DNA from: Mesobacillus subterraneus
Lineage (GTDB): Bacteria; Bacillota; Bacilli; Bacillales; Cytobacillaceae
Reading direction: 5' to 3'
DNA length: 39,214 nt
Assembly (NCBI RefSeq): GCF_000934845.1
Contig: NZ_JXIQ01000062.1
Span: forward strand, 1-39,214
The translations under genes were made by a program, and so were the position numbers. Shown here piece by piece: positions 18,241-26,491 of this stretch. The number at the start of each line of letters is the position of its first letter. Within the stretch, counting starts at the first letter, position 1. The notes under the pieces are model-generated. The model saw nothing but the letters and a program-made list of their open reading frames with translations. It ran no database searches and was not told where the DNA came from.

Positions 18241-19323
18241 ATGAAAGACATATCTGTAAAAGAATTAATCAGTTCAAGAAAATATATCCCTGTTGATGTT
18301 AGAGCACCAATCGAACATAAGGATTCAGCCATTCCTGGGTCGGTGAATATCCCGCTATTTACCGATGACGAAAGGCAGGAAATTGGCACACTTTATAAGA
18401 AATCCGGAGAAAAAGCAGCTAAATGGCGGGCGATGGAAATCGTTGCCCCTAAGCTTCCCCAGCTTCTTAGTGAAATAAAAGACTTGAAAAAGACCGGTGC
18501 CGAGCCAGTTATACATTGCTGGAGAGGCGGGATGAGAAGCCAGTCTGTTGCGTTATTTCTGGAATATTCCGGAATATCCGCCTATCGACTAGAGGGAGGC
18601 TATCGTGCCTATCGGGAATATGTTTTAGAAAAAATTCCCGAATTATTGCCTCACAAGGCAGTTGTTTTGCACGGGATGACTGGGACAGGAAAGACGGATA
18701 TTTTAAAAGTTTTACAGGAAAAGGGCTATCCCGTAATCGATCTAGAACAAATGGCTAACCATCGAGGATCGATTTTTGGAATGATTGGAATGGGAGAATC
18801 CCGCAATCAAAAAACCTTCGATGCACTGCTTTTTCATCGCCTTACTGAAATAACAGAATCGAATTATTTCATCGTAGAGGCGGAGAGCAAGAGAATCGGA
18901 CGGGCTGCCCAACCAGACGAAATAATTGCGAAAAAGGCGGACGGAATTCATTTTCTAGTCAAAAGTTCGATTCCCAAAAGGGTGGAGCGAATTTATCAGG
19001 AATATGTACATCCTTTTAAACAAGAGGTTTGGTTTGAAGAAGAAGTACAAGAAAAAGTCACCAAGCTGCTTAGACGGATTCCCGGAGACGCTGCAACATC
19101 CCTGCGACTAGCCTTGAAAGAGAAAAATTATCATGAACTGATTGAAATCTTGTTAATACATTATTATGATCCGCGTTATGGCCATGCACTCCAGGAGTAT
19201 CCAGGTCCGTTTCTTGAAATTGATGCGGATGTACCGGATGTAGTGGCACAGCTTGAGAAAAAACTAAAACTTTCCCTAGCTGATTCCAATTATGGTTTAA
19301 AAATTGGAGGAAAAGGTTATTAA
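18241..19323 (+). CDS. mnmH: tRNA 2-selenouridine synthase
   Basis: A 360-residue MnmH/SelU (YbbB). The N-terminal rhodanese domain has Cys93 in HCWRGGMRS, and a P-loop GMTGTGKT (145-152) starts the second domain. The enzyme replaces sulfur by selenium at wobble uridine 34 using selenophosphate, via a geranylated intermediate. This implies a selenophosphate synthetase elsewhere in the genome. ATG 18241 is chosen, though GGAGG lies 12 bases away; a TTG at 18232 is too close to it. It is a single gene with its own terminator. It is relevant to the double-UGA frame at 25712. Confidence 0.92.
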   Translation: MKDISVKELISSRKYIPVDVRAPIEHKDSAIPGSVNIPLFTDDERQEIGTLYKKSGEKAAKWRAMEIVAPKLPQLLSEIKDLKKTGAEPVIHCWRGGMRSQSVALFLEYSGISAYRLEGGYRAYREYVLEKIPELLPHKAVVLHGMTGTGKTDILKVLQEKGYPVIDLEQMANHRGSIFGMIGMGESRNQKTFDALLFHRLTEITESNYFIVEAESKRIGRAAQPDEIIAKKADGIHFLVKSSIPKRVERIYQEYVHPFKQEVWFEEEVQEKVTKLLRRIPGDAATSLRLALKEKNYHELIEILLIHYYDPRYGHALQEYPGPFLEIDADVPDVVAQLEKKLKLSLADSNYGLKIGGKGY

Positions 19324-24496: not shown

Positions 24497-25630
24497 ATGG
24501 GTATGCAAGCGATCACTGCTGAAAAGCTAAATGAATGGGTAGTTAGCAAGAAGGGCTTTTTTATTTTTGATGTAAGAAATGGCAAGGACTTTGAAGACTG
24601 GAAGGTTGAAGGTGAAAATATTGATTACCTGAATATCCCATACTTTGAATTGATTGATGGCGTCGAAGAGGTTGTTGATCAACTTCCTAAAGATAAGGAT
24701 ATCGTCGTGGTCTGCGCTAAGGAAGGGTCTTCAGTTATGGTTGCCGAAATGCTTTCTGATGCAGGTTTTGATGTATCATATCTTTCTGGCGGAATGAAGT
24801 CGTGGAGTGAATATCTATATCCAGTAGAAGTTTTTAAGGATGATAAAATTAAGGTACTTCAGTTCATCCGTGTTGGGAAAGGCTGCCTTTCTTACATGGT
24901 CCTGTCTGAAAACGAGGCACTGGTTGTCGATCCTTCCAGGTTCACGGACAGGTACACAAACGTAGCGGAAAAAGAAAAGGTGAAAATCACTCACATCGTC
25001 GATTCTCATCTTCATGCAGATCACCTGTCTGGAGGCAAGGAACTTGCTGACGTTACTGGAGCAAAATATTATCTGATGAAAAGTGAAGGGGCAATATTTG
25101 ATTTTGAAGCGCTGGAAGAGCATGATAAAATTGAATTTGAGAACATCACTCTTGAAGTATTGGCTGTCAAAACGCCTGGTCATACCCCGGGAAGTGTTTC
25201 TTTCTTTGTCAATAATAAACTTTTATTCTCTGGGGATACGATCTTTGTAAATGGACTTGGCCGACCAGACCTTGGCGGAAAAGCTGCAGAGTGGGCAAAA
25301 GATCTGTATAATACTGTGTATAGTAAAGTTTCACAAATCGCGGATGATGTGATAGTATTGCCAGGACACTATGCTGCATTTGATGAAGAAGTGAATGCGG
25401 AAGGTTTCATTGGGAGTCAATTAGGATTGATTCGTGATCAAAATGAAATGATGGCCGGTAAGTCGATGGAAGAGTTTGTTGACAAAGTTGCACAATCTGC
25501 ATCAAGCGAGACACCACCAAACTTCGAAGACATCGTCGCAATCAACCGCGGGGTGAAAGTAGTAACAGCTGAAGAAGCAATGGAGCTGGAGATTGGTCCT
25601 AACCGCTGTGCTGTCCACCACACTCATTAA
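24497..25630 (+). CDS. rhodanese-persulfide dioxygenase fusion (CstB-like)
   Basis: A 377-residue, two-domain protein. Residues 1-108 form a rhodanese with Cys73 at the active loop (VCAKEGS); residues 115-350 form an ETHE1-type metallo-beta-lactamase with H171-x-H173-x-D175-H176, H229, D247 and H291. Such proteins oxidise persulfides to sulfite and transfer sulfane sulfur, detoxifying sulfide. S. aureus CstB has the dioxygenase first and rhodanese-type domains after; here the rhodanese is N-terminal. The C-terminus ends CAVHHTH. A CstR-like operator covers the promoter. Enzyme class is firm, physiological role inferred. Confidence 0.9.
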   Translation: MGMQAITAEKLNEWVVSKKGFFIFDVRNGKDFEDWKVEGENIDYLNIPYFELIDGVEEVVDQLPKDKDIVVVCAKEGSSVMVAEMLSDAGFDVSYLSGGMKSWSEYLYPVEVFKDDKIKVLQFIRVGKGCLSYMVLSENEALVVDPSRFTDRYTNVAEKEKVKITHIVDSHLHADHLSGGKELADVTGAKYYLMKSEGAIFDFEALEEHDKIEFENITLEVLAVKTPGHTPGSVSFFVNNKLLFSGDTIFVNGLGRPDLGGKAAEWAKDLYNTVYSKVSQIADDVIVLPGHYAAFDEEVNAEGFIGSQLGLIRDQNEMMAGKSMEEFVDKVAQSASSETPPNFEDIVAINRGVKVVTAEEAMELEIGPNRCAVHHTH

Positions 25631-25634
25631 AATA

Positions 25635-25664
25635 AAAGAGGAGAGCACAGCTTTCCTCTTTTTC
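25635..25664 (+). terminator. terminator or attenuator after the dioxygenase gene
   Basis: AAAGAGGAGAGC (25635-25646) pairs with GCTTTCCTCTTT (25650-25661) with one mismatch, followed by T's. The next two frames lack a clear promoter of their own, so partial read-through is possible. Confidence 0.8.
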
Positions 25665-25711
25665 AAGTTTAAAGAGAAACTAGCACTTATTCGCTTGTGA
25701 GGTGAAAAATT

Positions 25712-25885
25712 TTGGAAAAAGAAGAAAAAAATAAAAACCATTGTGCAGGCGGTTCCTGAGGAATGGGACCTAAGCGTACTGGTGAAGAAGGAAAAGGGAA
25801 ATTCTCTGGCTTCCCCCCGATCTGACCGGCTACGTACATATGGCTCCTGGTAGGAGTCATTTATCTGATCTCTAAATTATTTTAA
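25712..25885 (+). other. 57-codon frame with two in-frame UGA codons: selenoprotein candidate or pseudogene
   Basis: From TTG 25712, with GAGGTG seven bases upstream, one frame runs to TAA 25883-25885. Its only interruptions are TGA at 25757-25759 and 25823-25825. The translation is MEKEEKNKNHCAGGS, UGA, a Gly/Lys/Glu-rich stretch (GMGPKRTGEEGKGKFSGF), PPI, UGA, PATYIWLLVGVIYLISKLF. The last part is a plausible membrane helix, predicting a small C-tail-anchored protein with a Cys-x-Gly-Gly-Ser-U redox-like motif. An 8-bp hairpin follows the second UGA at a bacterial-SECIS-like distance; none is clear after the first. The next gene, a flavoprotein, starts 36 bp later. Alternatives: UGG-to-UGA decay at two tryptophans, or a chance open frame. 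Confidence 0.45.
25840..25860 (+). promoter_or_regulatory. bSECIS-like stem-loop after the second UGA
   Basis: ATGGCTCC (25840-25847) pairs with GGAGTCAT (25853-25860), with one G-U, around the loop TGGTA. The apical loop begins 22 nt after UGA 25823-25825 and has G as its second base. This fits the published bacterial SECIS pattern: loop 16-37 nt from UGA, a short loop, and G among its first two bases. Many hairpins would fit by chance. Confidence 0.4.
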
Positions 25886-25921
25886 AAAATTTTAGTGATA
25901 GCAAATCAGGAGGAGTAAGAA

Positions 25922-26491
25922 ATGCTGGATGTATTAGTGATTGGAGGCGGAATCTCGGGAGGTTCTGCTGCGATTTATACTGCACAAGGTGGGCTGAAAA
26001 CTGGAGTCATTGATTCTGGCAAATCTCAGATAAAACAAGTTACAAAGATATTTAATTATCCGGGCATCAAAGAAATTAGCGGTGTAGAACTTTTGGAAAA
26101 TATCAAAGACCAGGTGATCGCTGCAGGTACTGAATGGAATGAAGGGATAGTGGAGACCGTCAAAAAGAAGGATCATGGATTTTCCGTCATTTTAACGGAT
26201 GGCAATGAATTTGATACCAAACATTTGATTATTGCAACCAATCTTCAAACTTCATTGCTTGAAAGTCTTGGATTCGAGCTGGCAGTCAATGAGAAGGTAC
26301 CAAGCGGAAAAATTAAAAAAGTACTGGGAATCGAGCCGGATGGAACAACAAACCAGCCTAATCTTTATATCACAAGTCTACTGGCAGGTCTTTCAAGTCA
26401 ATCCGTTATTGCTGCAGGGCATGGCGCTGCATTAGGTATTTCAATTGTTACAAAAGAAACAGGTAAAACCTATATGTGGCACGATAAGTAA
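25922..26491 (+). CDS. short FAD-binding, thioredoxin-reductase-like protein
   Basis: A 189-residue protein starting with an FAD-binding Rossmann motif (VLVIGGGISGGSAAIYTA), similar to the FAD half of thioredoxin reductase. It ends with an AAGHGAALG-like segment of the kind that closes the FAD domain. It is much shorter than thioredoxin reductase (about 310-320 residues): the NAD(P)H domain and redox-active CxxC are absent. It may therefore need an electron donor partner or have another role. GGAGGAG precedes the ATG. It follows the double-UGA frame by 36 bp and may be cotranscribed with it. Confidence 0.8.
   Translation: MLDVLVIGGGISGGSAAIYTAQGGLKTGVIDSGKSQIKQVTKIFNYPGIKEISGVELLENIKDQVIAAGTEWNEGIVETVKKKDHGFSVILTDGNEFDTKHLIIATNLQTSLLESLGFELAVNEKVPSGKIKKVLGIEPDGTTNQPNLYITSLLAGLSSQSVIAAGHGAALGISIVTKETGKTYMWHDK

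Follow-up and report, generated by a model that had tools for sequence, protein, structure and literature searches.

A two-UGA small membrane protein gene of Mesobacillus subterraneus with one SECIS hairpin that may serve both codons

The reading frame and its surroundings

The window analyzed here is a stretch of 39,214 nucleotides of Mesobacillus subterraneus contig NZ_JXIQ01000062.1, and all of the features described in it lie on the plus strand. At positions 25712 to 25885, a frame of 57 codons plus TAA opens with a TTG start, separated by 7 nt from the ribosome site GAGGTG (25699 to 25704). Its translation runs from LEKEEKNKNHCAGGS through a first TGA to GMGPKRTGEEGKGKFSGFPPI, then through a second TGA to PATYIWLLVGVIYLISKLF and the TAA stop. 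The original prediction had given the same frame, ribosome site and pair of in-frame UGA codons, all of which we confirmed from the sequence. Taken with its homologues and its codon-position bias, this frame would encode a small membrane protein with two selenocysteine (Sec) residues.

The first of the two putative Sec codons, as assigned by homologue comparison, is UGA-1 (25757 to 25759, residue 16), which falls in a C-x4-U-G motif. The Cys codon of this motif (25742 to 25744) was placed by alignment; of the 125 regions with TGA at both sites, 119 have Cys in that column. UGA-2 (25823 to 25825, residue 38), assigned in the same way, falls in a P-I-U-P motif. Because mean hydropathy reaches 1.76 across residues 36 to 54 (25817 to 25873), a single C-terminal membrane helix, also part of the original prediction, is plausible.

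The upstream neighbor (24497 to 25630) is a protein with rhodanese and metallo-beta-lactamase domains, of the persulfide-dioxygenase kind by profile match. Downstream lies a 189-residue FAD protein (25922 to 26491) that resembles the N-terminal third of thioredoxin reductase by profile match and whose translation contains no Cys. These profile matches agree with the predicted location between a persulfide dioxygenase and a flavoprotein. A further selenium user in the window, the tRNA 2-selenouridine synthase MnmH, is encoded at 18292 to 19197, as had also been noted. All Rfam matches within 25500 to 26100 were below gathering scores, and a scan for promoters and terminators yielded about as much as its shuffles.

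Conservation of the two UGA codons and the Sec machinery

Reading the gene as a selenoprotein gene, as the original prediction did, agrees with the genes present in the M. subterraneus genome. Profile searches detected selA (556 bits), selB (368 bits), selD (394 bits) and tRNA-Sec (58 bits), each over its curated cut-off, and ARAGORN assigned the tRNA the anticodon tca. The selD gene itself carries an in-frame TGA (L235; AGUGCK), with a strong GUU-loop hairpin ~33 nt downstream, and on account of these two features SelD is probably a selenoprotein. Beside selB, on the minus strand of locus L007, a thioredoxin-like frame contains a UGA at ~3722, read as the U of a U-S-V-C motif. A hairpin with the loop AGGUC follows ~25 nt downstream of that UGA, and the frame probably encodes another selenoprotein.

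We searched for relatives with both UGAs translated as Sec. The gene was found in 74 of 193 genomes of its own family. Among the 76 match rows of that search, 75 had two TGA codons (two of them plus a TAA), one partial match (G015) had one TGA, and none lacked TGA altogether. Relatives were also present in 52 of 397 genomes of the order sample, own family included, corresponding to 28 of 135 genera, and in 8 of 398 genomes of the class sample, own genus included. A search of 84,980 species genomes with a nucleotide pattern encoding P-I-(Sec or Cys)-P...WLL..G returned 75 stretches, of which 71 were real and four were chance matches (L052, L059, L072 and L093) as judged by translation. Site 2 of the 71 real stretches was TGA in 70 and TGT in one; Trp at this site was barred by the pattern but permitted by the profile searches. 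The record titles of these 71 stretches were from Bacillales or Bacilli, except for those of Chryseobacterium sp. ISL-80 (L060) and Pseudomonas sp. ISL-84 (L092). Both records have genes of the Mesobacillus or Cytobacillus type and are probably mislabelled assemblies.

Within the family, 72 of the 172 genomes whose tRNA-Sec scored over cut-off had the gene, versus 2 of the 21 others (Fisher p 0.0037). Counted by E-value, tRNA-Sec was below cut-off in 21 genomes of the family and selB in 23. The gene was found without tRNA-Sec or selB over cut-off in G171 (L166) and G175 (L167), both of genus g20, in which selB was over cut-off in 0 of 13 genomes. These two copies may be recent acquisitions that their hosts have no means to decode. 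Elsewhere, genome G051 has two copies of the gene ~290 nt apart (L079 and L177) with differing N-terminal parts. Degenerate relatives were seen at class level in genomes G751 (L243) and G682 (L242); in L243, site 2 is Ser and the front is disrupted, yet the GGC hairpin sequence persists.

For comparison of the two sites, 133 regions were reduced to 130 distinct genes by removing the chance matches L052 and L093 and by counting L091 and L146 as one gene. TGA was present at both sites in 127 of the 130. The remaining three were Halalkalibacter oceani (L089), with the Cys codon TGT at site 1; Peribacillus saganii (L065), with TGT at site 2; and L084, in which site 1 is absent. Trp (TGG) was found at neither site in any of the 130 genes, and no relative with Cys at both sites appeared in the family, order or class searches. 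The residue carried by homologues had been proposed as a check of the original prediction, and the outcome favored it: relatives were many, and every replacement in an intact gene was Cys. From these comparisons, the protein family appears to use Sec almost without Cys forms.

We next consider coding constraint. In the largest equal-length group, with 22 codons between the UGAs, changes at codon positions 1, 2 and 3 numbered 233, 157 and 896 upstream of UGA-1, 471, 259 and 1628 between the UGAs, and 272, 101 and 394 beyond the hairpin described below. The corresponding counts in an upstream control were 17, 15 and 18, from only 15 comparable pairs. Because third-position changes predominate before, between and after the UGAs, this comparative evidence establishes that both are sense codons that are read through. 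Initiation at a start codon between the UGAs, which would bypass UGA-1, was rejected as an explanation: ATG, GTG and TTG are absent from this interval in 99 of 127 genes.

The same data bear on the rival named in the original prediction, in which two UGG codons mutated to UGA in a decaying gene. A few copies are indeed broken, by a TAA between the sites (L091/L146), by a TAG (L206) or by loss of site 1 (L084). As an account of the family, however, decay fails because relatives are spread over many genera, third-position bias surrounds both UGAs, and the SECIS hairpin is conserved. Retention of both UGAs in nearly all genes and the lack of Trp also speak against it, and we give it next to no weight.

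One SECIS hairpin and a long-range helix

Downstream of UGA-2 in the window, folding and conservation identified a SECIS hairpin at 25840 to 25860, with a 9-bp stem and the loop GGU at 25849 to 25851, 23 nt past the UGA. Across the family the hairpin takes the form UGGCUCCU-GGY-AGGAGUCA, and its 3-nt loop starts 23 nt past UGA-2 in 124 of 127 genes. The bSECIS model, as given in PMC13188914, has an apical loop of 3 to 9 nt with a G in the first two positions, a stem of 4 to 16 bp, and a position 16 to 37 nt past the UGA. The hairpin after UGA-2 agrees with that description in loop, distance and stem. Hairpins of this type at or below -7.5 kcal/mol followed UGA-2 in 112 of 127 genes, versus 6.3% of synonymous recodings. 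Several codons within the hairpin are nearly frozen despite having synonyms (CTG in 125, GGA in 122 and CTC in 106 of 127 genes), and some of its pairs covary, including a C-G to G-C exchange in three sequences. Scanned over the genome, hairpin model R1 scored 57 bits here and no more than 15.4 bits (E 0.36) elsewhere, leaving no second strong site. Comparative and folding data agree on one bSECIS hairpin, with the loop GGY, 23 nt past UGA-2.

The situation at UGA-1 is different. By the same energy threshold, a bSECIS-type hairpin followed UGA-1 in only 6 of 127 genes (one of them at 39 nt) versus 0.4% of recodings, and the gene in the window has none. The set of 127 used for folding includes L089, for which an upstream TGA was taken as UGA-1, its true site 1 being TGT; the codon-position counts and, below, the control windows, the swaps within a spacing class and the comparison of own hairpins with M:N draw on that set too. 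Since the six hairpins exceed the synonymous control, a local element is real in some lineages. As a general solution, a SECIS directly after UGA-1 was rejected on these counts and on the folding of the sequence downstream of UGA-1 (mean z -0.10). This lack of a local element in most genes is what could be expected if UGA-1 were read by near-cognate suppression, for example as Trp, with Sec inserted at UGA-2 only. Such decoding would, however, have to be reconciled with the absence of TGG from site 1 throughout the family; the sole replacement there is the Cys codon of L089, near the conserved Cys of the C-x4-U motif. We regard suppression at UGA-1 as highly improbable.

Folds of individual sequences first suggested pairing between two segments that flank UGA-2 at a distance from each other. 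The first, M, begins ~12 to 15 nt past UGA-1, and the second, N, lies between UGA-2 and the hairpin. In the window, predicted folding and the species-swap tests described here place M (GCGUACUGGU) at 25774 to 25783, starting 14 nt past UGA-1, and N (ACCGGCUACGU) at 25825 to 25835. In the swap tests N was exchanged between species, with one representative per similarity cluster (<75% alike). This left 54 or 25 representatives out of 123 distinct sequences (L089 left out), and 37 for swaps within a spacing class. M paired with its own N at -12.95 kcal/mol, versus -8.20 kcal/mol for swapped partners (sd 0.35; 54 representatives; 0 of 20,000 permutations as low). The smaller set of 25 gave -11.95 versus -7.49 kcal/mol (sd 0.51; 0 of 20,000 as low), and restricting swaps to the same spacing class gave -12.71 versus -8.82 kcal/mol (37 representatives; 0 of 10,000). 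Control windows showed no significant excess at any of three thresholds, either upstream of UGA-1 (803, 277 and 139 of 2000) or upstream of UGA-2 (456, 1241 and 1261 of 2000).

The position of the predicted helix is tied to UGA-1. The best register fell within 26 to 32 in 99 of 124 sequences, compared to 42 in the swapped control, and it is anchored to UGA-1 although the distance between the UGAs ranges from 14 to 22 codons. Whereas the linear distance from UGA-1 to the hairpin is 65 to 89 nt, the predicted effective spacing with M:N formed has a median of 22 nt and a range of 15 to 31 nt (54 representatives). For the gene in the window, mRNA ahead of a ribosome at UGA-1 is predicted to reach its minimum energy with M:N and then the hairpin, at an effective spacing of 27 nt as counted by hand on the fold. 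The stability of this combined fold is unexceptional (z only -1.62; matched by 15 of 200 shuffles). M:N also occurs in two genomes from beyond the order that turned up once the idea had formed, with energies of -12.0 and -14.3. Both hairpin and M:N are kept in P. saganii, in which site 2 is Cys.

Genes with a GG/GU hairpin of their own after UGA-1 offered a further comparison, made on 120 sequences without a tree and with a criterion set after the hairpin counts had been seen. Four of the six such genes have weak M:N (-4.8 to -6.6), versus a median of -12.45 in the other 114 (Mann-Whitney p 0.004), as if one solution were replacing the other. In L108 and L183 an own hairpin coexists with M:N, and in L071, L206, L062 and L076 M:N is weak and this criterion finds no own hairpin.

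Other analyses bound the strength of the pairing signal. Two-sided changes exceeded shuffles that ignore relatedness, with 49 cells versus 29.6 in the group with 20 to 21 codons between the UGAs and 21 versus 7.7 in the group with 22 (0 of 500 each); covariation was weak where 16 or fewer codons separate them. With 22 codons between the UGAs, shifting the register by +4 paired 71.1% of cells, versus 68.0% in the proposed one. Across 36 sister pairs, an underpowered set, a change on one side only, in M or in N, cost a pair in 39 cases and left it in place in 13, and two-sided changes kept pairing in only 4 of 9. Mean M:N energy was -13.21 for native genes, -12.06 for within-gene codon permutations and -10.45 for synonymous recodings; part of M:N is therefore due to codons and composition. 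Reversed or shuffled M still beat the swaps by ~1 kcal/mol (44 and 20 of 10,000), and composition accounts for that ~1 kcal/mol of the excess. Folding the interval from UGA-1 to UGA-2 alone gave a mean z of -0.35, which became -1.13 when the fixed SECIS region was added. Alifold, applied per spacing group, recovered the hairpin and missed M:N in most groups. Taking these limits together with the swap tests, we conclude from the species comparisons that M is complementary to N in a register anchored to UGA-1.

We infer that one SECIS is shared by both UGAs. While a ribosome waits at UGA-1, the M:N helix would loop out the intervening mRNA and bring the hairpin to an effective ~22 nt from that codon, where SelB and Sec-tRNA would insert the first Sec. 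With M:N then opened by the ribosome, insertion of the second would be directed by the same hairpin, at its distance of 23 nt from UGA-2. M starts about where mRNA enters the ribosome when UGA-1 occupies the A site, and N lies inside the ribosome when UGA-2 does; given this geometry, M:N could act only at or before UGA-1. A "moving" SECIS of this kind, offered in turn to two UGAs by a helix that the ribosome opens, would make Sec insertion ordered, and we consider it likely. The product would be a membrane-anchored selenoprotein of ~57 residues, with U16 of the C-x4-U-G motif on a soluble N-terminal part and U38 of the P-I-U-P motif at the start of the sole membrane helix.

Both UGAs could also encode Sec while M:N does something else, such as slowing the ribosome or controlling initiation, with UGA-1 served by a weak local element or over a long distance. 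The hairpins after UGA-1 in a few lineages and the frequent breakage of M:N pairs between sister sequences would fit this alternative. On the other side, a bSECIS-type hairpin follows UGA-1 in few genes, and those genes tend to have weak M:N; the register fixes the distance to UGA-1 specifically, and M:N is intact only with a ribosome at or before that codon. We therefore hold it to be unlikely and retain the shared hairpin as the preferred account of decoding.

Gene neighborhood, function and comparison with known systems

Neighboring genes were counted in 131 gene regions, in which related genomes are included and flanks are unequal, with the opposite strand serving as a rough control. Genes for sulfane-sulfur metabolism (relatives of rhodanese, TusA, DsrE, persulfide dioxygenase, CoA-disulfide reductase-like proteins or TauE) lay close by in 83 of the 131 regions when counted on the gene's own strand, versus 5 on the opposite one. 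A copy on plasmid pBO1 lies in a cluster with DsrE, rhodaneses, TusA, glutaredoxin, an MBL hydrolase, TauE/SafE and peroxiredoxin. No entry of the gene table covers the match, which is flanked by a rhodanese gene on one side and, on the other, by genes for a hypothetical protein, CcdA and a redoxin. None of four plasmids has the gene listed at the match (the gene table being incomplete), as expected if gene finders treat UGA as a stop.

The original prediction had paired the protein with the adjacent flavoprotein, reasoning that the latter has no CxxC of its own. The translated flavoprotein has no Cys at all; the partnership itself is weak: a relative of the FAD protein is downstream in only 22 of 131 regions. 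It is mostly a genus-level partner, in relatives of Mesobacillus, and a general flavoprotein partner was rejected. What the C-x4-U motif, the placement of another Sec at the membrane surface and the company of sulfane-sulfur genes suggest instead is a Cys/Sec (selenenylsulfide) redox relay, tethered to the membrane and acting in sulfane-sulfur (persulfide) detoxification. Such a relay would pass electrons or persulfide sulfur between rhodanese, TusA or persulfide-dioxygenase proteins and a membrane or flavin acceptor.

The protein might instead handle selenium, binding or relaying selenide or selenite; this alternative concerns function only. Mesobacillus selenatarsenatis, a selenium-reducing species, has the gene (L069), and in 5 of the 131 regions the gene is preceded on its own strand by selD. 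Sulfane-sulfur genes are far commoner as neighbors, and we find a selenium-handling role rather doubtful. For the joint reading, a membrane-anchored protein with two Sec residues, one SECIS shared through M:N, and a redox relay role in persulfide detoxification, we estimate a probability of about 0.75.

Database comparisons returned no established family. Seventeen members had no NCBIfam match with an E-value of 1 or below, and the window protein alone hit only PknG_rubred in Pfam (E 0.083, below that profile's cut-off). No entry fits in the table of a 2026 catalogue (PMC13188914), whose count is 119 families and subfamilies. Table 1 of that source lists as bacterial two-Sec families MbdU, MduS, FmdB-type UxxU, metal-binding UxxU and the selenobacteriocin SGUG. 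These too have two Sec residues, and none is listed with C-x4-U plus P-I-U-P; by eye, the SGUG motif resembles GSUG here. Among the matches listed in the open-licence literature, a description of this protein or of a shared bacterial SECIS was absent.

The cluster on pBO1, which we take to be a cst-type operon, places that copy among sulfane-sulfur detoxification operons, to which the selenoprotein would be an addition in the gap between the rhodanese and the hypothetical protein. In this respect the gene would link selenium to persulfide detoxification in spore-forming bacteria. It also adds to the Bacillales a widespread selenoprotein family with two putative Sec residues and almost no Cys forms.

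In decoding, the gene resembles bacterial selenoprotein genes with a downstream bSECIS, such as those for formate dehydrogenase and SelD, both in the use of UGA and in hairpin type. Bacterial Sec decoding, as described in PMC13188914, relies on SelB, tRNA-Sec and a GG/GU-loop hairpin 16 to 37 nt past the UGA. Here, in contrast, one hairpin would serve two UGAs that are 14 to 22 codons apart, by way of a long-range helix. One SECIS for more than one UGA is a likeness to certain archaeal and eukaryotic mRNAs; selenoprotein L, according to PMC3541580, has two Sec and one SECIS. In those systems the SECIS lies in the 3' untranslated region and acts at a distance, whereas here it is within a bacterial coding sequence. 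In our judgment the protein forms a new family within a known class and its decoding a new variant, one that seemingly breaks the rule that each bacterial Sec codon has its own SECIS after it and that can be tested by compensatory mutations.
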